Shown here: piece after piece, positions 1,941 to 51,398 of the stretch
Position numbering within the stretch: the stretch's first letter is position 1
How the letters are laid out: every line of letters begins with the position of its first letter
Assembly (NCBI RefSeq): GCF_000744375.1
Contig: NZ_JQLU01000005.1
Location: 1,116,001-1,180,000, forward strand
Reading direction: 5' to 3'
DNA from: Carnobacterium gallinarum DSM 4847
Lineage (GTDB): Bacteria; Bacillota; Bacilli; Lactobacillales; Carnobacteriaceae
DNA length: 64,000 bases
The notes under the pieces: model-generated
Database searches by the model: none
The model's input: only the letters and a program-made list of their open reading frames with translations
What the model was told of the DNA's origin: nothing
Position numbers and translations under genes: made by a program

Positions 1941-4900
1941 TTATTTTAAGCTTCTCTTTTTTGAAAAAAGAATACTTATTGCACCGAATAAAGCTAATAG
2001 CCCTATAATTAATGTTAGATAATTTGGCATTTCACCTGTTTGTGGAAATTCAGTTACATGACTTTCTGGTTTAGGTGTTGGTGTAGGAATTTGAGTTCCA
2101 TTACTAGTTCCTTGATCACTATGATTTTCATTAGTATTTCCATCAACTACCAGATTTTTCGTATAAATATAAATCACGTCTTGTGCTTTATCTGTAAAAG
2201 TTCCAGTTGAATTACCTTGAATTTCTTTAAACATATAGCCTTTAATATCAAGCTGTTTGGTGGTATAATTCTCCCCAACATTCCCTGATAAAATGACATC
2301 CTTTGAAAGTGTATTCCCCTGTTCATCCTGATAACGAACCGTCACATCGGCTCCTTTTACTGCATCTTTCGTATAAACATAAATCACTTCTTGGACTTTA
2401 TCCGTAAATTGACCCGTTGAATTCCCCTTTACTTCTTTGAAGGTATACCCTTTAATCCCTAATTCTTTCGACGTATAATTTTCGCCAACATTCCCTGATA
2501 AAACTTCATCTTTTGAAAGTGTATTCCCTTGTTCATCCTGATAACGAACCGTCACGTCCGCTCCTTTTACTGAATCTTTCGTATAAATATAAATCACTTC
2601 TTGAACTTGATTCGTAAACTGACCCGTTGAATTCCCTTTTACTTCTTTGAAGGTATACCCTTTAATCGTCAATTCTTTCGACGTATAATTTTCCCCAATA
2701 TTTCCTGATAAAACTTCATCTTTTGAAAGTGTATTCCCCTGTTCATCCTGATAACGAACCGTCACATCCGCTCCTTTTACTGCATCCTTCGTATAAACAT
2801 AAATCACTTCTTGTGCTTTATCCGTAAACTGACCTGTCACATTTCCCTTTACTTCTTTAAACGTATACCCTTTAATCACTAATTCTTTCGACGTATAATT
2901 TTCCCCAATATTCCCTGATAAAACTTCATCTTTTGAAAGTGTATTCCCCTGTTCATCCTGATAACGAACCGTCACATCAGCTCCTTTTACTGGATCTTTC
3001 GTATAAATATAAATCACTTCTTGAACTTTATCCGTAAATTGACCCGTTGAATTCCCTTTTACTTCTTTGAAGGTATACCCTTTAATCGTCAATTCTTTCG
3101 ATATATAATTCTCCCCAACATTCCCTGATAAAATGACATCCTTTGAAAGTGAATTCCCTTGTTCATCCTGATAACGAACCGTTACATCGGCTCCTTTTAC
3201 TGGATCTTTCGTATAAATATAAATCACTTCTTGGACTTTATCCGTAAATTGACCCGTTGAATTCCCCTTTACTTCTTTGAAGGTATACCCTTTAATCGCT
3301 AATTCTTTCGACGTATAATTTTCCCCAATATTCCCTGATAAAACTTCATCTTTTAAAAGTGTATTCCCTTGTTCATCCTGATAACGAACCGTCACATCGG
3401 CTCCTTTTATTGCATCTTTCGTATAAACATAAATCACTTCTTGTGCTTTATCCGTAAACTGACCTGTCACATTTCCCTTTACTTCTTTAAACGTATACCC
3501 TTTAATCCCTAATTCTTTCGACTTATAATTTTCCCCAATATTTCCTGATAAAATGACATCCTTTGAAAGTGTATTCCCCTGTTCATCTTGATAACGAACC
3601 GTCACGTCCGCTCCTTTTACTGGATCTTTCGTATAAATATAAATCACTTCTTGAACTTGATTCGTAAACTGACCCGTTGAATTCCCTTTTACTTCTTTGA
3701 AGGTATACCCTTTAATCGTCAATTCTTTCGACGTATAATTTTCGCCAACATTCCCTGATAAAACTTCATCTTTTGAAAGTGTATTCCCCTGTTCATCTTG
3801 ATAACGAACCGTCACGTCGGCTCCTTTTACTGGATCTTTCGTGTAAACATAGATAGTTTCTTGTTGTTGATCGGTAAACCACCCAACTTTATTCCCTTTC
3901 ACTTCTTTAAACGTATATCCTAGGATAGTAAGTTGTTTGGTGATATACCCTTTTCCAATATCACCACTTAAGATAGCATCTACTGCAATCTTAATGCCCT
4001 GCTCATCTTGATAGCGAACCGTTACATCGGCTCCTTTTATAGGATTTTTCGTATAAATATAGATTACTTCTTGCGCTTTGTCCGTATATTGACCATTCAC
4101 ATTTCCTTTTACTTCCTTGAACGTATATCCAGGAATATCCAACTTGTTCGTTGCGTAATTATCACCAACATTGCCACTAAACGTTTCATCTGTTGCAATT
4201 TGATTTCCTTGTTCATCCTGATATCGAGCTGTCACATCAGCGCCCAATACAACTTGTTTGCTATAAATAAATTTAAATTGATACTTAGGTGTTTTAGAAA
4301 TAACCGTACTAGTACCTTGTTCAATTAAAATTGAATTGGGTTTACCACTAATTGGTTGACCTTTTATTGTTAACGCATACGGAGCTTCTGCGTATGTGTC
4401 CATAATATTGGATTGAGTAATATCCGTTTCAGTACCTGTTTCATTAATTAAAATAACTTTTTCTAAAGTCTGTCCTGGAATAATAACTATATCTTTATAT
4501 TTTTCTACAATTAATGCATTATAAGCAAGGGGCAAACTTGCTGGTTCATCTGCTTTTATTTGATTCCCAGTTGCATCATAAAATAAAAAATTGGAGCGAT
4601 ACATTCTAGATTTTAATTGAATAAAAGCTTTATTTCCTACAAGTGGTTTACTTTTAAATCTAAAATTATATTTTATATAGTCTGTATCTTCAATTAATGT
4701 AGCATCCGCACTTGTTGATTCTACTTGATAAATATCTGCAAAATCTAACCTCTTCATCAAAACAGATAAGGGTATACTAGAGTCAGTCAATGAAAATGGA
4801 CCTGTATATATATTAAGATTTTCAGCATAAGGAGCACGATAATACGGATCTGTCGGCATTGCTGTAATTGTAAATGTTCCTGTTATATCCGTATCAGCAA

Positions 4901-5015
4901 GCGGACTGGGGCTTGTTGTTAATGGCTGCTCAGTTGGAGCTACAGCATATGATGGAGTTGGAAAAATCGTCATAATTGTTAGTAATGTGACAAACAGTAT
5001 TCTATACTTTTTCAA
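1941..5015 (-). CDS. Cell-wall-anchored MucBP-repeat adhesin
   Basis: This 1,024-residue protein carries a Sec signal (about residues 1-26, MKKYRILFVTLLTIMTIFPT onward), a unique N-terminal region (about 27-255), ten tandem 70-residue MucBP repeats (about 256-956), a Ser/Thr/Pro spacer, and a sortase sorting signal: FPQTGE, a hydrophobic stretch (YLTLIIGLLALFGAISILF) and the basic tail SKKRSLK. FPQTG is a variant of LPxTG. MucBP domains bind mucin-type glycans in intestinal lactic acid bacteria, so a surface adhesion role is expected. The start codon is TTG, supported by GAGGAA nine bases upstream and by the signal peptide beginning there. It is a stand-alone unit with its own terminator. The unique N-terminal region was not recognised. 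No sortase lies nearby. Confidence 0.92.
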   Translation of the reverse strand: MKKYRILFVTLLTIMTIFPTPSYAVAPTEQPLTTSPSPLADTDITGTFTITAMPTDPYYRAPYAENLNIYTGPFSLTDSSIPLSVLMKRLDFADIYQVESTSADATLIEDTDYIKYNFRFKSKPLVGNKAFIQLKSRMYRSNFLFYDATGNQIKADEPASLPLAYNALIVEKYKDIVIIPGQTLEKVILINETGTETDITQSNIMDTYAEAPYALTIKGQPISGKPNSILIEQGTSTVISKTPKYQFKFIYSKQVVLGADVTARYQDEQGNQIATDETFSGNVGDNYATNKLDIPGYTFKEVKGNVNGQYTDKAQEVIYIYTKNPIKGADVTVRYQDEQGIKIAVDAILSGDIGKGYITKQLTILGYTFKEVKGNKVGWFTDQQQETIYVYTKDPVKGADVTVRYQDEQGNTLSKDEVLSGNVGENYTSKELTIKGYTFKEVKGNSTGQFTNQVQEVIYIYTKDPVKGADVTVRYQDEQGNTLSKDVILSGNIGENYKSKELGIKGYTFKEVKGNVTGQFTDKAQEVIYVYTKDAIKGADVTVRYQDEQGNTLLKDEVLSGNIGENYTSKELAIKGYTFKEVKGNSTGQFTDKVQEVIYIYTKDPVKGADVTVRYQDEQGNSLSKDVILSGNVGENYISKELTIKGYTFKEVKGNSTGQFTDKVQEVIYIYTKDPVKGADVTVRYQDEQGNTLSKDEVLSGNIGENYTSKELVIKGYTFKEVKGNVTGQFTDKAQEVIYVYTKDAVKGADVTVRYQDEQGNTLSKDEVLSGNIGENYTSKELTIKGYTFKEVKGNSTGQFTNQVQEVIYIYTKDSVKGADVTVRYQDEQGNTLSKDEVLSGNVGENYTSKELGIKGYTFKEVKGNSTGQFTDKVQEVIYVYTKDAVKGADVTVRYQDEQGNTLSKDVILSGNVGENYTTKQLDIKGYMFKEIQGNSTGTFTDKAQDVIYIYTKNLVVDGNTNENHSDQGTSNGTQIPTPTPKPESHVTEFPQTGEMPNYLTLIIGLLALFGAISILFSKKRSLK
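2148..4250 (-). repeat. Ten tandem 210-bp repeats coding for MucBP domains
   Basis: The phrase ATAACGAACCGT and its flanks recur exactly every 210 bases (near 2330, 2540, 2750, 2960, 3170, 3380, 3590, 3800, 4010) and once in a more divergent form near 4220. Each unit encodes about 70 residues from KGADVTVRYQDEQG to YIYTKD. The eight units nearest the C terminus are almost identical; the two nearest the N terminus are more diverged (VDAILSGDIGKGY, ATDETFSGNVGDNY). Confidence 0.95.
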
Positions 5016-6515: not shown

Positions 6516-7154
6516 ATGATTGAATTAACTAATTTAACCATTGCTACAAACGAAGCACTGATTATTGATGCAACTATTAATTTAAAGATTCACAACATAT
6601 ATGGTTTAAGCGCTCCAAATGGAAGTGGAAAATCAACCTTGATGAGAGTCCTTTCTGGGCTATTAAATCAGCATTCTGGCACAGTAACCTTTTACAACGA
6701 ACAAGAAAAAAAACTAAGTAACGTTCAAATAAAAAAAGATTTATTTTATTTTGAAACTAGCAATTGGCTCGATGGAAATTTAACAGGCTTAGATTATTTA
6801 AAGCTAATCAATGCTCTCTGGGAGGGAGAAAAAGACTCCATCAATCAAGTGATTCATTTCTGGGGAATGGAACATTATATAACGAAACCGATAAAAAAAT
6901 ACTCCTTAGGAATGAAACAAAAAGTCTTACTAAGCCTCTATACAGTCAGTAATACTCGTTATTGGATTTTAGATGAACCCACCTTAGCTTTAGATAAAGC
7001 TAGCGTCACATTGTTAACACGTTACATTGATGATGCACGAAATAGCGGTAAGATGGTGCTATTTTCATCTCATGCAGGAGATGAACTATTTAGTAGTTGT
7101 GATACTTTATTAGCTATTGAAGATAGAAAATTAATCTTAACTGGAGGGAACTAA
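6516..7154 (+). CDS. ABC transporter ATP-binding protein
   Basis: This 212-residue ATPase has Walker A APNGSGKST (residues 36-44; Ala in place of the usual first Gly), the signature YSLGMKQK (about 130-137), Walker B YWILDEP (about 152-158) and the H-loop SSHA. It is a compact, single-domain exporter ATPase. The spacing to the first permease is two bases, and two permeases follow, so it energises that complex at the cytoplasmic membrane. The arrangement resembles bacteriocin-immunity or antimicrobial-peptide exporters, but the substrate cannot be read from the sequence. Confidence 0.85.
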   Translation: MIELTNLTIATNEALIIDATINLKIHNIYGLSAPNGSGKSTLMRVLSGLLNQHSGTVTFYNEQEKKLSNVQIKKDLFYFETSNWLDGNLTGLDYLKLINALWEGEKDSINQVIHFWGMEHYITKPIKKYSLGMKQKVLLSLYTVSNTRYWILDEPTLALDKASVTLLTRYIDDARNSGKMVLFSSHAGDELFSSCDTLLAIEDRKLILTGGN

Positions 7155-7156
7155 AT

Positions 7157-8332
7157 TTGACTAATTATTGGTTGTTTTTATTGAAACTCACTACACGAAA
7201 AAAATTAAATTTTATTCCAGTTGCTATTCTTATTCTTTCAACCTTATTTTTAGTAACGATGAATACAAGGGCTTCCACTAATGCTGGATTTAAAAATGAC
7301 ATAACTTCCTATAATAAGCTCCTTGAAGAACTTATTGATAAATATGAAAGTTATGATAAAATTTCAACAGATAAAATCTATCTGGAACAGATTGCTATAG
7401 AGAAAAAACGATTAGCAACCATTATTACGCTAAATAAAAAATCGATTGAATTGGCAGAAAAAAATGATTGGAAAGCTGCTTTAACACTACAATTAAAAGT
7501 AATTGATGAGATGGATATTAAAAAAATAGAAGATAAAGATCAATATGTACCAGTTGGATATCCAAAATTTGTGTTTGGGAAAAAAGCAACCTATCAGTAT
7601 CTAATCAAAAACAATCTAAAACCAAATATATTAACTATCGAAAATCAAGGTTTTCCCTATCTTTTTCGAGCAATAGATGTTTTATTTCCTGTCCTCGTGG
7701 TATTATGCATCATCACTCTTTTAACCAATTTATTTACCGAGAATTTTAAACAAGGAATGAACCTTGATAATCTATTTCCTCTAAAAAAGCAACGCCTATT
7801 AGCAAGTAAACTAACTTTCGGTGTTCTAGTAGCAAGTATAGTTTATGCCATAACTTTACTCATTTCCTTTGCTTCTGCCACCCTAATAAGTGGCTCCAAT
7901 TCACCAAGTTATCCTGCTGTTTTAAATACACCCAGCTATACAGATATCCGACCAATTGGTGCTTTAATGCTTGAAGGCTTATTTCTGCAATTTTTATGTA
8001 TCATCTTTTTAGTGCTATTTGTCTACATTATTGCCCAATTGACTAAAAATAAAGTCGCAACCTTATTTATAAGCATCTTTATCTTGTGTGGCTTAACATT
8101 GACTCTCGCTAAAATACAACCTCTAGCTTCTATATTGCATGGAATTCCCATCACTTATTTTAATACAATCGCTGTATTATTACGGGATATTTCCTTTGAA
8201 ACTGGAAATGCAAATGTGACCTTAATCTCTGGAACTATCACATTAACGGTCTCTATCTTAATTGAGTTAGCTATTGTGACTTTGTTAAATTATAAACGTA
8301 GTAACTATAAAGAGAATAAACTAGCCTATTAA
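7157..8332 (+). CDS. ABC transporter permease (first paralogue)
   Basis: This 391-residue integral membrane protein starts at TTG with GGAGGG eight bases upstream. It has one N-terminal helix (about residues 20-38), an extracytoplasmic domain of about 130 residues, then five hydrophobic segments (about 170-190, 218-243, 270-292, 298-318, 352-375). The motif NLFTENFKQGMNLDNLFPLKKQ sits in the loop after helix 2. It shares most of its sequence with the next gene, so the two arose by tandem duplication and probably form a heterodimeric channel with the upstream ATPase. Confidence 0.8.
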   Translation: MTNYWLFLLKLTTRKKLNFIPVAILILSTLFLVTMNTRASTNAGFKNDITSYNKLLEELIDKYESYDKISTDKIYLEQIAIEKKRLATIITLNKKSIELAEKNDWKAALTLQLKVIDEMDIKKIEDKDQYVPVGYPKFVFGKKATYQYLIKNNLKPNILTIENQGFPYLFRAIDVLFPVLVVLCIITLLTNLFTENFKQGMNLDNLFPLKKQRLLASKLTFGVLVASIVYAITLLISFASATLISGSNSPSYPAVLNTPSYTDIRPIGALMLEGLFLQFLCIIFLVLFVYIIAQLTKNKVATLFISIFILCGLTLTLAKIQPLASILHGIPITYFNTIAVLLRDISFETGNANVTLISGTITLTVSILIELAIVTLLNYKRSNYKENKLAY

Positions 8333-8358
8333 AATAACATTCATTGGGGGACTACAAT

Positions 8359-9486
8359 TTGACTAAATATTGGTTATTTTTATATAAAACTACTATCCGC
8401 AATAAATTTAATTTTATCCCTATTGCCATTCTTATCCTTTTAACAATCGCTTTACTATGGCTGAATGCAACGCTAACTGCTAGCAATGGCTTTATCCCTA
8501 TGATACGTATGCAAAATGCCGACAATAAAAATTCATTTAGTGACAATAAAGAAGTAAATCTGATGATACAAGAACAAATCGCTAGTAACGAGCGAGTGAT
8601 TGAATTAGCCGAAAAAAATGATTGGAAAGCCGCTTTAACCTTACAACTAAAAGTACTTGAGGAGACAGATATCAAACTAGTTGAAAATGAAAGCCAACCT
8701 GTGCCAATTGAGTTAAAAAAAAGTATTCTAGGAAAAAAAGCAATCTATCAATATTTAGTAAAAAACAATCTAAAACTAGATACGTTAGAAAGGGAAACTC
8801 AAGGATTTCCCTTTGTCTTCAGAGTTATCGCTAGTCTCTTTCCGTCCGTTGTCATCCTATGTATCATTGCACTTCTAACTAATTTATTTACAGAAAATTT
8901 TAAACAAGGGATTAACTTAGATGATCTATTTCCTCTAAAAAAGCAATATCTACTGACAAGTAAACTAGGTTTTGGGATTTTAGCAGCCAGCACAGTTTAT
9001 GCAATAATCTTACTGATTTCCTTTGTTTCTGCCACAATTATAAATGGATCCAATTCACTGAATTATCCCGCTCTCTTAAACACTCCTAGCTTCATTGATA
9101 TCCGACCAATCGGTTCTTTAATAGCTGAAGCTCTATTCCTACAATTTTTATGTATCATCTTTTTAGTTTTATTTGTTTATATCCTTGCACAATTAACGAA
9201 AAATAAAGTCGCAACCTTATTTATCAGCGTATTTATTATCTGCGGCTTAGTATTAACCGTAACGAAAGTGCAACCTTTAGCCTTTATAGCTCATAGAATC
9301 CCATTTGTTTATTTTAATACAATTGATATCTTGCTACAGAATTCTTCCTATATAACAAATAATCCAAAGGTCACATGGATTACTGGAATTACTACATTAT
9401 TGATTTCTATTTTAGCTGAATTAATTATTGTTATTTTATTAAATTATAAACCCAGAAACAAGAAGATTCCTTTATTTGAAAGATAA
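8359..9486 (+). CDS. ABC transporter permease (second paralogue)
   Basis: The protein is a close copy of the preceding permease (KNNLKLDTLERETQGFPFVF against KNNLKPNILTIENQGFPYLF; NLFTENFKQG is conserved in both) with the same topology. A longer start at TTG 8344 is possible, but TTG 8359 aligns with the start of the paralogue (MTKYWLFLYK against MTNYWLFLLK) and has GGGGGA at the right distance, giving 375 residues. It differs mainly in the extracytoplasmic region (about residues 40-90), where it is shorter. It is the last gene of the exporter operon. Confidence 0.78.
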   Translation: MTKYWLFLYKTTIRNKFNFIPIAILILLTIALLWLNATLTASNGFIPMIRMQNADNKNSFSDNKEVNLMIQEQIASNERVIELAEKNDWKAALTLQLKVLEETDIKLVENESQPVPIELKKSILGKKAIYQYLVKNNLKLDTLERETQGFPFVFRVIASLFPSVVILCIIALLTNLFTENFKQGINLDDLFPLKKQYLLTSKLGFGILAASTVYAIILLISFVSATIINGSNSLNYPALLNTPSFIDIRPIGSLIAEALFLQFLCIIFLVLFVYILAQLTKNKVATLFISVFIICGLVLTVTKVQPLAFIAHRIPFVYFNTIDILLQNSSYITNNPKVTWITGITTLLISILAELIIVILLNYKPRNKKIPLFER

Positions 9487-9582: not shown

Positions 9583-10746
9583 TTATTTCACAGCTTTTCT
9601 AACGCTATCTGCTACAATATCTGATACGCCTGGTGTAAACACATCTGGCATAATATAATCAACATTTAATTGTTCATCTGTTACGACACTAGCAATTCCT
9701 TGTGCTGCGGCAATCTGCATTTCCACTGTAATATCATTCGCACGTGCATCTAACGCACCACGGAAAATCCCTGGGAAAGCCAAAACATTATTGATTTGGT
9801 TAGGGAAATCACTACGCCCTGTTCCAACAATATAAGCACCACCGGCTTTGGCTTCATCTGGGAAGATTTCTGGTGTTGGATTTGCCATTGCGAAGATCAT
9901 TGGTTTGTCGTTCATATGCTGAATCCACTCTTTTTTCAAGACTCCTGGAGCTGAAACGCCTACAAAGACATCCGCTCCTTTTAGCGCATCTTCCAGTGTT
10001 CCAGTTCGGTGTTCTAGATTCGTTACTTTAGCAATCGCTGCATGATGCGCAGGAAGATTAGGATCTGTTTCTGAGATAATCCCCGTTTTATCAACAATCG
10101 TTACATGTTTCACGCCTGCTGCTAGGAACATTTTGCTAATCGCTGTTCCTGCCGCACCGCCACCGTTTACTACTGCTTGAATTTCATCTATTTTTTTGCC
10201 TGTCAAACGCAAGCCATTGTACAATGCTGCTAATACAATAATCGCTGTTCCATGTTGATCGTCATGAAATACAGGAATATCTAACATTTTCTTTAATCGT
10301 TCCTCAATTTCAAAACAGCGTGGAGCACTGATATCTTCCAGATTAATCCCACCAAATGAAGGGGCAATCGCAGCAATATGAGAAATAATTTCTTCTACAT
10401 CTTGAGTAGCCAACGAAATCGGCACCGCATTAACATTAGCAAATCGTTTGAATAACGCTGCTTTTCCTTCCATTACTGGGATTGCTGCTTCTGGTCCAAT
10501 ATTCCCTAAGCCTAAAACTGCCGAACCATCCGTCACTACCGCTACCATATTGCGTTTAGTTGTATAATCATACACTTTTTCTGGATTCTCAGCGATTGCT
10601 GTACAAACTGCTGCTACTCCTGGTGTATAAGCAATACTCAAATCTTCCATCGTTTCAATTGGAACCGTTGGGATTATCTCTAATTTTCCGCCTTTTTCCT
10701 TGCTGATTGCTAGCGCTTTTGCTTTTACATCTGTCATCTGATCCAT
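9583..10746 (-). CDS. maeE: Malic enzyme (oxaloacetate-decarboxylating)
   Basis: This 387-residue cytoplasmic enzyme converts L-malate to pyruvate and CO2 with reduction of NAD(P)+. It has the malic signature with tyrosine (AYTPGVA, about residue 39), [18 protein letters not shown], the metal site [10 protein letters not shown] (about 162-171) and a Rossmann motif [10 protein letters not shown] (about 192-201), followed by MANPTPEI. The length fits the short bacterial malic enzymes. It lies downstream of the malate transporter, 63 bases away on the same strand, and next to a divergent MaeK/MaeR pair, which is the known mae locus arrangement in lactic acid bacteria. The GAGGGAGA upstream could serve either the first ATG or the in-frame ATG three codons later. 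Confidence 0.93.
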
Positions 10747-10809: not shown

Positions 10810-12135
10810 TTAGAATAAAAAACGCATTAATGCTGTCATAGAAATTACTGTAATTGCACCACCTAAACGCGTTGCTACTTGGGCAAATGGCATTAAGTTC
10901 ATTCGATTTGATGCAGATAGAATTGCTACGTCGCCAGTTCCACCCATCCCACTTTGACATGCTGTAATAATCGCGGCTTCAATTGGATACATATTCATTT
11001 TTCCACCAACAAAATAACCAGTTAAAACGACTGTTAATACAACAGAGATTACTACTACAAAATATTGCCAAGATAGCATTCCAACAACATCTTTCAACGG
11101 GATATATAACATTCCTAAACCAACCATTAATGGGAAGGTAAAGTTTGCAGAAATAAATTTGTACAATTGTTTTGACCCTTTTTCGATATCACCTGGTAAT
11201 ACACTCAAGTATTTCAATAAAGCAGCTACTAGAATCATTAAGACTGGGCCAGGAAAACCGGTAAATTTTTGTAAAAGTCCGCCAGTAATAAATAACGTAC
11301 AAGCAACCAATACACCTGCGCCCATTAATTTGACATCTAAAGGACTTGTGTCTTCCTTCATAGCATCTGCCATATCATCGCCGTCTTTGAATTTTACAAG
11401 TTGTCCCTGCCCACATTTGTCTGGGCGTTTTTCACCTAAGCGATTCAAGATTCCTGAACTAATAATAGCAAAGAAATTCCCAATAATAGTGGCTGGAATT
11501 AATTGTCCGACTAATTGCTCACTTGGAATTCCTGTAATGGCGCTATATCCTAACGATAGTGGTAAGATTCCCTCACCAATTCCTCCAGAAATAATTGGCG
11601 TCACAATATAAAACAATGTATGCTCAAAACCTAAGCCTAACAACGTTCCAATCGTAGTTCCAACAACTAAAGCTAGAATCATTCCACATGCCATTGGAAT
11701 AATCATCCGCATCAAACCTTGAACTAATATTTTGCGATGCATTCCTAAAATACTACCACACACTAGACAAGCAATATAAAAATATAAAAAATTTGCTTGC
11801 TTCATTAACATATCCGTTGCTGCTAATGTATTGGCATTAAAAAAATTAAAGAATACCAAGATTGACGGAATCATTAAAGAAAAAATTGCTGATCCACCAA
11901 AGTTTTTTAATCCTGGAATACTTCCGCCAATTCCACCTAAAAACCAACCTAAACTTAAAATAATAGCAAATCCACCTAACATATTGACTGGTAATTCTTC
12001 AAAATAAGCTGATAACATAATCACGATGGCCATTGCCAGATAAGCTGGTAATGGAATAGCACCAACTTTTACTTTTTTAAACTTCTCAAAAAAGTTTAAC
12101 GATTTCACGTCTTCCATTTCGTTTGTAACACGCAT
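10810..12135 (-). CDS. maeP: Malate transporter, 2-hydroxycarboxylate transporter (2HCT/CitP) family
   Basis: The 441-residue protein has about 11 hydrophobic segments and the two conserved GGxG-type re-entrant motifs of 2HCT carriers (SGGIGEGILPLSLGY near residue 184 and QSGMGGTGDVAILSAS near 391). Family members carry malate or citrate across the membrane. Coupling with the next gene, malic enzyme, indicates malate. The start ATG follows GGAGG by seven bases. A possible cre site and repeated TTTAA motifs lie upstream, suggesting catabolite repression plus MaeR activation. Confidence 0.92.
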   Translation of the reverse strand: MRVTNEMEDVKSLNFFEKFKKVKVGAIPLPAYLAMAIVIMLSAYFEELPVNMLGGFAIILSLGWFLGGIGGSIPGLKNFGGSAIFSLMIPSILVFFNFFNANTLAATDMLMKQANFLYFYIACLVCGSILGMHRKILVQGLMRMIIPMACGMILALVVGTTIGTLLGLGFEHTLFYIVTPIISGGIGEGILPLSLGYSAITGIPSEQLVGQLIPATIIGNFFAIISSGILNRLGEKRPDKCGQGQLVKFKDGDDMADAMKEDTSPLDVKLMGAGVLVACTLFITGGLLQKFTGFPGPVLMILVAALLKYLSVLPGDIEKGSKQLYKFISANFTFPLMVGLGMLYIPLKDVVGMLSWQYFVVVISVVLTVVLTGYFVGGKMNMYPIEAAIITACQSGMGGTGDVAILSASNRMNLMPFAQVATRLGGAITVISMTALMRFLF

Positions 12136-12209: not shown

Positions 12210-12238
12210 TTATTTAACTAATTTAAGTGTTGTTTAAT
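12210..12238. promoter_or_regulatory. Candidate MaeR binding repeats
   Basis: TTATTTAA (12210-12217), TAATTTAA (12219-12226) and TGTTTAAT (12231-12238) place a TTTAA core at intervals of 9-11 bp between the divergent genes. From memory, MaeR of Lactobacillus binds direct TTATTWAA repeats, so this is a plausible operator. Confidence 0.45.
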
Positions 12239-12326: not shown

Positions 12327-13886
12327 ATGAAAAGAATGAAAAAAGGACAACGTTTGTGGATGAAACTAACCTTAATGGTACTTCTAACCGTATTCGTGAC
12401 TTTATTTGCCCTCTATTTCCTATTAAATCAGCAAATTGCCAAATCGGTTCGTAAAGATGAAGAAGTCCATTTGCTAAAAATCGCCCGCACGATTGCTAAA
12501 TATCCATTGGTCCATGAAGCGCTAATAGAGAATAAAACATCTGCAGAACTTCAAAATTACGCCAATGAAATGCAGGAGAATTATGATTTAGATTTTGTTG
12601 TTGTAATGACAATGGACCATCTTCGTTTAACGCATCCAGATGCTAAAAAAATTAATCAACATTTTCAAGGTGGTGACGAAGAGCTGGCCATTCATGGTAA
12701 GGAATCAACTTCCACTGCCAAAGGAACATTAGGTGAGTCCCTACGTGGCTTTGTCCCTGTTTTTGATGATAATGGTCGAGAAATTGGAGTTATCGCTCTA
12801 GGGATTAAAACAACTACAATCAAATTGCTTTCAAAAGAAACAATGAAACCGTTCACTTTAAGTTTAATGCTAGCCTTTTCCTTTGGCTTAGCTGCTGCGA
12901 TGTTTACAGCTTACACGCTGAAAAAGCAAATGTATGATTTAGAACCTCAAGAAATCGCTCGTTTATTGGAAGAACGTAACGCTATGCTAGACTATACAAA
13001 AGACGCCATTATTGTAACCGACAAGGAAAATAAAATTATTCTCTCTAACTTTGAGGCGAAACGAATCTTTAATTTGATTTCAGAAGAAAAAGATTTGCCC
13101 ATTGAAGGTGGTTCAATTAAAGATTTTCTGCCTGACGTCAAAGATATTCCCGAAATCAGTGCAGATTACCAAACAATTGACAAATTATATCATCAAAATG
13201 GAGTGGATTATTTACTTTCAGCTGCTCCAATTCTTGTTCGTAAAAAAGTCATCGGGCAAATTATTACCTTACGTGATGCTACGGAACTTTATTTATTAAC
13301 TGATCAATTGTTTAACACAACAGCCTATGCCACTTCTCTACAGGCACAATCCCATGATTTTCTCAATAAACTTCATGTGATTTACGGTTTAACTGATTTA
13401 GAAGATTACGATCAGCTAATGAGCTACCTTGAAAAAATCTTAGAACCTGAACAGGAATTTTCACAACGAATGGTTTATTTAGTTCATAATCCTGTTATTG
13501 CGGGATTTCTGATTGGCGAACGAAGTAAATTCTCTGAAAAAGGTGATCCATTTATGATTGAGGTGTACCCAGATATCCCTACAACCAATCAAAATGAAAA
13601 CGTTCAGTATTGGATTAGCTTAATTCGTTTTCTAAATCATTTTATTTTGGAAAATCAACTAGCAGAGCAGCTACAAGTTCGCTTAGGATTTTGGAATCAA
13701 CAGTTGCAAACAACTTATGAATTACGAATTGAGACCACTCTTCAAACAGAGCTTTTAACGAAAATCAAAGGCCGTTATTTTAGTAGTCTTTTGACATTTT
13801 TAGCTGGTGAATTAGAAATTGAATATACTGAAGAATGGCTAAAATTATCATTTCATACGATTTATTTAAAGGAGGACGAAATCTGA
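12327..13886 (+). CDS. maeK: Malate sensor histidine kinase MaeK (CitA/DcuS type) with degenerate ATPase domain
   Basis: The 519-residue protein has a transmembrane helix at about 13-32, an extracytoplasmic Cache/PAS-like sensor (about 35-170), a second helix (about 172-195), a cytoplasmic PAS domain (about 215-330) and the CitA/DcuS-type phospho-acceptor box QSHDFLNKLHVIYGL (His near 346). The last 130 residues should be the HATPase domain, yet no N-box (usually GNLIENA), no DxGxG and no G2 box can be seen; the corresponding text reads ISLIRFLNHFILENQLAEQ and LEIEYTEEWLKLSFHTIY. Another frame does not restore them. The ribosome binding site is AAGGAG. It overlaps maeR by one base. Neighbours make malate sensing the likely role. 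Confidence 0.85.
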   Translation: MKRMKKGQRLWMKLTLMVLLTVFVTLFALYFLLNQQIAKSVRKDEEVHLLKIARTIAKYPLVHEALIENKTSAELQNYANEMQENYDLDFVVVMTMDHLRLTHPDAKKINQHFQGGDEELAIHGKESTSTAKGTLGESLRGFVPVFDDNGREIGVIALGIKTTTIKLLSKETMKPFTLSLMLAFSFGLAAAMFTAYTLKKQMYDLEPQEIARLLEERNAMLDYTKDAIIVTDKENKIILSNFEAKRIFNLISEEKDLPIEGGSIKDFLPDVKDIPEISADYQTIDKLYHQNGVDYLLSAAPILVRKKVIGQIITLRDATELYLLTDQLFNTTAYATSLQAQSHDFLNKLHVIYGLTDLEDYDQLMSYLEKILEPEQEFSQRMVYLVHNPVIAGFLIGERSKFSEKGDPFMIEVYPDIPTTNQNENVQYWISLIRFLNHFILENQLAEQLQVRLGFWNQQLQTTYELRIETTLQTELLTKIKGRYFSSLLTFLAGELEIEYTEEWLKLSFHTIYLKEDEI

Positions 13887-14575
13887 TGTACCGTGTTTTA
13901 ATTGTGGAAGATGACCCAATGGTGTTATCGATTAATCAACGTTATTTAGAAAAAATTCCTGGTTTTGTTGTTGCCGATACTGCAACTGGTTACTCAGAAG
14001 CGATTCAATTAACTAGTAAACACCGTTATGAATTGATTTTAGTAGATATCCATCTAAAGGAAGGCAATGGCTTAACATTGATTAAAACGTTGCGGAATCG
14101 GAATTATCCTGCTGAACTTATCATGATTACAGCTGCTAGCGAACAAGAGGCTATTCGGCTGAGTTTGCAATATGGAGTAACTGATTATATTCTAAAGCCA
14201 TTTCAATTTACACGCTTTAAAAAAAGCATCGCTCTCTTTCAACAACGACAAGAATTATTAAAGGATTCTACTACGATTACTCAGGAACAATTAGATGCCT
14301 TACATTTTTCCAACCCAATCCATCCAAAATTGACAGAAACCGCCGTTACTTTGGATAAAGGTCTAACTCAACCGACATTAGATTTAATAGTGAAGCTCAT
14401 CCGACAACAAGCAGCCGGTTTTACTGTTTCTGATTTGACCAATGCAACCAATCTATCGCATGTTTCTGTCCGCAAATATTTGCATTATTTGGAAGGTAAT
14501 GGCGTGATAAAAATGAAATTAGAATATGGAACAGTCGGACGACCAACTAGCTTGTATTATTTAATTGAAACATAA
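13886..14575 (+). CDS. maeR: Malate response regulator MaeR (CitB/DcuR type)
   Basis: The chosen start is the ATG that overlaps the maeK stop (TGATG), preceded by GGAGG; it gives 229 residues beginning MYRVLIVEDDPMV. Residues 1-120 form a receiver domain with acidic pocket EDD, phospho-acceptor Asp in LILVDIHLKEG (about residue 54), a Thr/Ala pair in IMITAAS and Lys in ILKPF. The C-terminal part (about 160-229) holds a helix-turn-helix (FTVSDLTNATNLSHVSVRKY) ending in the GRPTSLYYL segment typical of CitB-family regulators. It should activate maePE. Translational coupling with maeK is clear. Confidence 0.92.
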   Translation: MYRVLIVEDDPMVLSINQRYLEKIPGFVVADTATGYSEAIQLTSKHRYELILVDIHLKEGNGLTLIKTLRNRNYPAELIMITAASEQEAIRLSLQYGVTDYILKPFQFTRFKKSIALFQQRQELLKDSTTITQEQLDALHFSNPIHPKLTETAVTLDKGLTQPTLDLIVKLIRQQAAGFTVSDLTNATNLSHVSVRKYLHYLEGNGVIKMKLEYGTVGRPTSLYYLIET

Positions 14576-51369: not shown

Positions 51370-51398
51370 TTGACATCACCATGGAAAAGCGTTAAATT
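51370..51398 (+). promoter_or_regulatory. ilv-leu operon promoter
   Basis: -35 TTGACA and -10 TAAATT are 17 bases apart, about 90 bases before the leader peptide. Confidence 0.72.

Follow-up and report, generated by a model that had tools for sequence, protein, structure and literature searches.

Here we examine maeK, a gene of Carnobacterium gallinarum DSM 4847 encoding a malate sensor of 519 amino acids, within a window of 64,000 nucleotides (NZ_JQLU01000005.1, positions 1,116,001 to 1,180,000 of the forward strand; all coordinates below are positions in this window). Our main finding is that this MaeK is a further member of the Mae1 group on every criterion checkable from sequence, namely gene cluster, tree, degeneration of the catalytic and ATP-binding (CA) domain, a His in the SPOB_a domain, and Asp54 in its response regulator, MaeR. 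It probably works as an ATP-independent, malate-gated sensor whose MaeR would be phosphorylated from a general donor other than ATP. In this respect the window gene is typical of Mae1, the loss of the CA motifs being a published trait of the whole group. For the MaeK of Lactobacillus casei, Miguel-Romero et al. (2017, PMC5457438) describe a degenerated CA domain that lacks the boxes and the lid, and they present such a domain as common to the Mae1 MaeK proteins of Lactobacillales, whereas Mae2 kinases keep an intact one. New here are the predicted retention of the CA fold, the purifying selection acting on it, the invariance of a His and an Asn, the loss of a neighboring acidic residue in one clade, and surveys of paralogues, receivers and gene clusters.

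Relatives were gathered through size-limited or sampled searches, which supplied the best 80 of 237 relatives from named records and covered 395 genomes across the order (71 with a match), 147 genomes of a single genus (11 with a match) and, in one further search, 59. From the order-wide matches, 30 were turned into loci and 13 further regions were added, about 35 weaker ones (mostly 26 to 31% identical) being left out at that step. The 141 aligned sequences comprised 93 degenerate and 48 canonical ones, sets that contain the same organisms twice, and 58 and 32 at 95% non-redundancy. Since the degenerate class was defined by the absence of the DxGxG string, that absence is by construction. The 58 include the window protein, whose C-terminal 202 residues were aligned with 57 non-redundant relatives and compared with the 32 canonical proteins; three records of split maeK copies (L130, L131 and L141) were excluded before residues were counted. 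In a midpoint-rooted FastTree phylogeny, one branch, of support 1.0, divides the 58 degenerate proteins, among them that of Lacticaseibacillus zeae (L061), from the canonical set of 32. This agreement between the sorting by DxGxG and the tree is not by construction, as the CA domain was left out of the tree. Loss of the ATP motifs is common to the whole 58-member clade and, on this tree, is consistent with a single loss. The MaeK proteins closest to that of the window come from nine genomes of one Lactobacillales genus (57 to 62% identity) and, among the best 80 of 237, from Trichococcus records (57 to 61%).

The first-pass annotation of this DNA had described a normal sensor, PAS domain and His box followed by a C-terminal part without ATP-binding motifs. 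The open reading frame (12,327 to 13,886, forward strand, as are all its parts) was identified by Pfam and NCBIfam matches, its clade membership by the tree. It begins with an extracellular sCache_3_2 sensor (residues 40 to 165, 12,444 to 12,821; Pfam 9e-27). The dimerization and histidine phosphotransfer (DHp) helical domain, of the SPOB_a family, spans approximately residues 323 to 380 (13,293 to 13,466), with the Pfam match itself at residues 335 to 373 (1e-10) and SPOB_a detected in 58/58 members; it carries the His box H343-D-F-L-N347 (13,353 to 13,367), made of the phosphoacceptor His and an Asn at +4. Sensor and His box are in place. The PAS domain (about residues 216 to 320, 12,972 to 13,286, cytoplasmic) is supported by the family alignment, and its profile match is weak (PAS_9 0.04, PAS 0.09).

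The claim about the C-terminal part was borne out. Residues 381 to 515 (13,467 to 13,871) form a degenerate CA domain, and no HATPase family figures among the Pfam matches of the window protein. In a profile-profile alignment against the 32 canonical proteins, Leu466 occupies the position of the D-box Asp, and Ile468 and Thr470 those of the G1 glycines (D/G1-box place, canonical DxGxG, residues 466 to 470, 13,722 to 13,736). Phe439 stands at the Mg-binding Asn of the N-box place (residues 434 to 440, R-F-L-N-H-F-I, 13,626 to 13,646), and a gap of 13 residues at the G482/R483 junction (13,770 to 13,775) replaces the ATP lid and G2 box. Because this alignment covers the whole transmitter, the degenerate domain is most likely descended from a normal CA domain. 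Across the 58 members, the D-box column holds Leu, Ile, Phe, Cys, Met or Val and never Asp (0/58). A scan of their C-terminal parts for motif strings gave two matches to NxxxNA, one to DxGxG, one to GxG(L/I/G) and five to a loose (S/T)(S/T)K lid, as against 30, 32, 32 and 31 among the 32 controls; the four N, D/G1 and G2 matches sit at wrong alignment positions, while the alignment places of the five lid strings were not assigned. The protein thus has the sCache-PAS-His box order of a canonical citrate-family kinase (the PAS weakly matched), and its CA motifs (N box, DxGxG, lid and G2) are missing.

It is conceivable that such a gene is simply a pseudogene in decay, or a canonical kinase disrupted by a frameshift, as the ATP motifs are gone and split copies exist in two related genomes. 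Yet the frame is open over all 519 codons, and a profile of canonical CA domains, searched against the six frames of the whole window, found nothing above chance (best E 2.5, at 51,396). A frame error hiding a CA domain is rejected on this ground, as the first-pass annotation had also held. Moreover, the ratio of nonsynonymous to synonymous substitution rates (dN/dS), taken over ten distinct pairs of which several fall within one genus and are thus not all independent, was 0.125 for the CA domain (0.148 after residue 405), 0.113 for PAS, 0.087 for the sensor and 0.031, the lowest value, for DHp. The highest CA value of any single pair was 0.20, and the canonical control (11 pairs, duplicates among them possible) gave 0.087. 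The degenerate CA domain is under purifying selection and not decaying; on these ratios and on the invariant residues described below, decay is rejected for the family, and we give it practically no chance.

Structure prediction agrees with a domain that has lost its motifs and kept its architecture. With the 58-row alignment, AlphaFold2 reached a predicted local distance difference test score (pLDDT) of 83 to 95 in ten-residue blocks over model residues 81 to 200 (202 in all), and of 37 to 61 over the first 60, the His helix. The CA part of the model matched the CA domains of DesK (Z 13.3, 2.5 Å over 123 residues) and AgrC (Z 13.2). In model and alignment, the secondary-structure order of the C-terminal part is that of a CA domain minus the lid; judged by this order, no intact pocket with permuted motifs was found. 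The degenerate domain is thus predicted to keep the kinase CA fold.

Two residues of the His box are conserved throughout the clade: His343 and Asn347 are invariant (58/58 each). The acidic residue that follows the His, which is described as activating it for autophosphorylation in HisKA kinases (PMC7005713), is kept in 46/58; the other 12 have Lys, Thr, Ser or His, and all belong to one Streptococcus clade of support 1.0 (L074-L078, L086, L113, L122, L123 and L125-L127: seven Streptococcus records and five from further genomes of the same genus). Loss of this acid with retention of the His fits a release from autokinase duty, judging from the alignment. The acid is also absent in one of the 32 canonical proteins (L007), so that its loss is not strictly tied to that of the CA motifs. 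In the literature covered, outside which most subscription journals fall, we found no mention of this loss in Streptococcus MaeK. Two further observations concern the same box. L007, from genome G042, is a citrate-family kinase with DxGxG present and a His in place of the acid after the phosphoacceptor His. The split copies of maeK occur in a Streptococcus genome (G402, L130/L131), with parts approximately 11 kb apart, and in another genome of the order (G234, L141), with parts overlapping in different frames; the His is still present in the two fragments carrying the His box, followed by Gln in L131 and Glu in L141.

As for MaeR, it was located in 126/141 loci, which yielded 54 of the 58 Mae1 and 23 of the 32 canonical sets; because the filter demanded an ED(D/E) motif, the presence of the N-terminal acids follows from the selection itself. 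Asp54 and Lys104 are present in 54/54, as is Thr or Ser at position 82. The MaeR of the window has D54, T82 and K104, and thus keeps the Asp that the first-pass annotation had credited to it. Two residues after the Asp, His is found in 41/54 Mae1 regulators and Tyr in 22/23 canonical ones. This position is reported to affect receiver kinetics (PMC8510515), and the His hints at altered phosphorylation kinetics in the Mae1 regulators, although one ancient substitution might account for the difference.

Biochemical data come from L. casei, as reported in PMC5457438. Its MaeK is described as neither binding the ATP analogue AMPPNP nor autophosphorylating. Deletion of maeK abolished growth on malate and maePE expression, the gene being required for induction; deletion of the C-terminal domain also prevented growth on malate, with misfolding not excluded; and Asp54 of MaeR was required in vivo. 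Since MaeK is required, uses no ATP, and acts on a regulator whose Asp54 is required, the phosphate of MaeR therefore does not come from MaeK-bound ATP. We propose that malate is sensed outside the cell and that the signal would pass through the PAS domain and the DHp helices, with the degenerate CA domain retained in folded form for a structural or allosteric role. The helices, with their invariant His343 and Asn347, would dock MaeR and permit phosphorylation of Asp54, the donor being a general non-ATP source of the cell, either acetyl phosphate or the phosphotransferase system (PTS). Once phosphorylated, MaeR would bind the repeats of the maeP-maeK intergenic region and switch maePE on.

The first-pass annotation had suggested an atypical route, with MaeK as a phosphatase or scaffold or with phosphate from another donor. 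An ATP-independent route stands, being demonstrated for L. casei MaeK (PMC5457438), while a phosphatase alone does not. If MaeK were only a MaeR phosphatase, switched off by malate, the invariant His and the Asn at +4 would have a ready role, these being the kinds of residue used in the HisKA phosphatase reaction (PMC7005713). A null mutant, however, would then be expected to behave in the opposite way to that described, and no activity on phosphorylated MaeR is reported under the conditions used in vitro (PMC5457438). Phosphatase action could be a second activity, but as the sole one we consider it very unlikely.

Which donor serves MaeR can be narrowed by what the genomes contain. A canonical citrate-family kinase of the same cell might phosphorylate MaeK in a heterodimer, or MaeR directly, and the genome of the window does encode one with intact motifs (L013/L145). 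A second full-length canonical match was found in only seven of the 50 Mae1 genomes searched, that of the window included; in the other 43, MaeK itself is the sole match with sensor and His box, although an unrelated kinase might still contribute by cross-talk. As a general rule this donor is rejected, and the explanation keeps but a slim chance. The canonical kinase of C. gallinarum belongs to a Mae2-like cluster (L145:4790-9363), together with a regulator, a D-2-hydroxyacid dehydrogenase, with sub-threshold matches to D-lactate dehydrogenase models, and a transporter of the Mem_trans family; a Mae2-like cluster is also reported for Carnobacterium maltaromaticum LMA28 (PMC5457438).

A second candidate is a relay of the Spo0B/PhyT type, in which a stand-alone receiver would pass phosphate to His343. 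A PDB sequence search with the Mae1 transmitter profile retrieved Spo0B alone (three sequences, E 2e-4) and nothing further up to E 10, and PhyT, a membrane-anchored kinase-like protein with a degenerated ATPase domain, is described as a phosphotransferase (PMC5898713). The canonical profile, however, gave 127 matches at E up to 1 and matches Spo0B better (1.3e-6), so that the likeness reflects common family and not a Spo0B-like function. Moreover, all 26 receiver matches in the genome of the window sit in frames of at least 215 amino acids, and a stand-alone receiver as donor is rejected there. Among seven other Mae1 genomes tested, four have no receiver match in a frame below 190 amino acids and three have one short frame each, of which one (136 amino acids) is a whole receiver and two are partial. 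Such a relay is highly improbable.

Finally, a donor kinase encoded in the mae cluster is rejected, as none is conserved in 38 loci: beyond maePE and maeR, no further gene, kinase or other, is conserved beside maeK. Because a partner kinase is not general in the family, a stand-alone receiver is absent from the genome of the window, and the cluster encodes no conserved donor, the likeliest source is a general one, namely acetyl phosphate or the PTS.

How phosphate would travel from a general donor to Asp54 is less clear-cut. In one variant it passes through His343, a path toward which we lean slightly because the His and Asn are invariant; donor and path are both putative, and we rate this variant as falling a little short of an even chance. 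In a pure scaffold, discussed by Miguel-Romero et al. (PMC5457438), MaeK would instead stabilize a swapped MaeR dimer that phosphorylates itself from a small donor, with no phosphate on His343. The swapped dimer with BeF3 and the weak labelling of MaeR by acetyl phosphate (same source) speak for it, as does the Asp+2 difference described above, which may nevertheless go back to one early substitution. A scaffold need not keep the His, however, whereas His343 persists in all members even where the adjoining acid is lost. We regard the scaffold as a realistic possibility, somewhat less probable than not. A more specific form of transfer, in which HPr or Enzyme I phosphorylates His343 and MaeK hands the phosphate on to Asp54 as a malate-gated phosphotransferase, is rather unlikely as such; the S. 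pyogenes pts phenotype, as related in PMC5457438, speaks for the PTS as donor, and HPr is present in 16/16 Mae1 genomes tested (of 50). If true, this route would mean a two-component system running on phosphoenolpyruvate instead of ATP and coupling malate use to sugar status.

Several observations weigh against an ATP-independent sensor fed by a general donor. The biochemistry comes from L. casei only, and the function of the C. gallinarum protein would follow from its membership of the group. Acetyl phosphate, and phosphoenolpyruvate on its own, are reported to leave L. casei MaeK unlabelled (PMC5457438), and the labelling data leave no phosphate donor proven. An invariant His343 is no proof of phosphorylation, since the 229-column alignment has further columns without variation, His350 and eight others, and HPr, being in every genome tested, separates nothing. 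Remnants of the ATP site persist in some members: the Asn column of the N box holds Asn in 5/58, and in a search of 58 sequences the canonical CA profile still recognizes five degenerate CA domains at E<1e-3 (best 2.5e-6), the top two being from Streptococcus. We nevertheless hold the ATP-independent reading to be the probable one. With the window gene, a further lineage joins a clade of sensor kinases that work without ATP across several Lactobacillales families. The conserved His and Asn, the disappearance of the autokinase acid from one clade, the lack of a canonical paralogue in 43 of the 50 genomes searched and that of a stand-alone receiver in the genome of the window narrow the candidate sources of MaeR phosphate towards general donors.

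The surroundings of maeK are those of the Mae1 group. The maeR gene (13,886 to 14,575, forward strand) shares one base with maeK and encodes a receiver and helix-turn-helix regulator by Pfam, with 5lwk and 5lwl as best PDB sequence matches. On the reverse strand lie maeP, a 2-hydroxycarboxylate transporter (10,810 to 12,135; PF03390 7e-154), and maeE, a malic enzyme (9,583 to 10,746; PF00390/PF03949). The families of maeP, maeE and maeR each adjoin maeK in 36/38 loci; the commonest family after the four mae genes, judged from its window member to be ABC-type ATPases, occurs in 16/38, on either strand. In the maeP-maeK intergenic region, the MaeR repeat TTATT(A/T)AA published in PMC5457438 occurs in three spaced copies at 12,210 to 12,237 (forward strand; starts 12,210, 12,219 and 12,230, with 0, 1 and 1 mismatches). 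Only the spacing of the copies is informative, because matches across the whole window are about as many as expected (577 against 561). A chain of three was matched by one of 100 shuffles, and such chains occur in 15/59 upstream regions against 0.2 expected. The test is insensitive, as L. zeae gave a chain of two only, though L. casei has three published repeats.

Two features elsewhere in the window were also seen. Beside an ABC-type ATPase gene (6,516 to 7,154), two adjacent, similar membrane-protein genes (7,157 to 8,332 and 8,344 to 9,486, forward strand) suggest, by eye, that an ABC permease gene was duplicated in tandem. On the reverse strand (1,941 to 5,015), a surface-type protein of 1024 amino acids contains a 210-base unit (about 70 amino acids, GADVTVRYQDEQGN) repeated 9.4 times in tandem, and an LPxTG-like end, FPQTGE. 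These repeats presumably resemble MucBP repeats.

Compared with known systems, the window locus is closest in design to the Mae1 group as typified by L. casei: both have divergent maePE and maeKR, an sCache sensor, a His in SPOB_a, a degenerated CA domain, Asp54 in MaeR, and the repeats. The window MaeK is 44% identical to that of L. zeae over the best segment, and the residue after the phosphoacceptor His (His343, equivalent to His334 of L. casei) is Asp in the former and Glu in L. casei. SPOB_ab, reported for L. casei MaeK (PMC5457438), is not among the 25 of 31 matched Pfam families listed for the 58 members, window protein included, at E up to 1. The malate kinases of Bacillus and Neobacillus (MalK/DcuS by their NCBIfam names), which rank with the nearest relatives found whose CA domain looks functional (best 80 of 237), share the order of sensor, PAS and His box, and the window protein gives sub-threshold matches to the DcuS/MalK models. 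Unlike it, they keep the D/G1 box, lid and G2 box and nearly always the N box.

Spo0B resembles MaeK in that a CA-like fold comes after its His helices, and the modelled His helices and CA part match it with Z 10.8 (5.7 Å over 154 residues). In Spo0B this fold is not known to bind ATP, and the protein is not known to have a membrane sensor. MaeK likewise combines a DHp domain with a catalytically empty CA-like fold, but Spo0B takes its phosphate from the stand-alone receiver Spo0F (PMC5898713), the like of which was not found among the receiver matches of the C. gallinarum genome. PhyT (PhyP) of Sphingomonas melonis, with its membrane anchor, sensor-kinase-like build, degenerated ATPase domain and working His, is a further parallel; it differs from MaeK in that its phosphate is reported to come from the single-domain regulator SdrG (PMC5898713).
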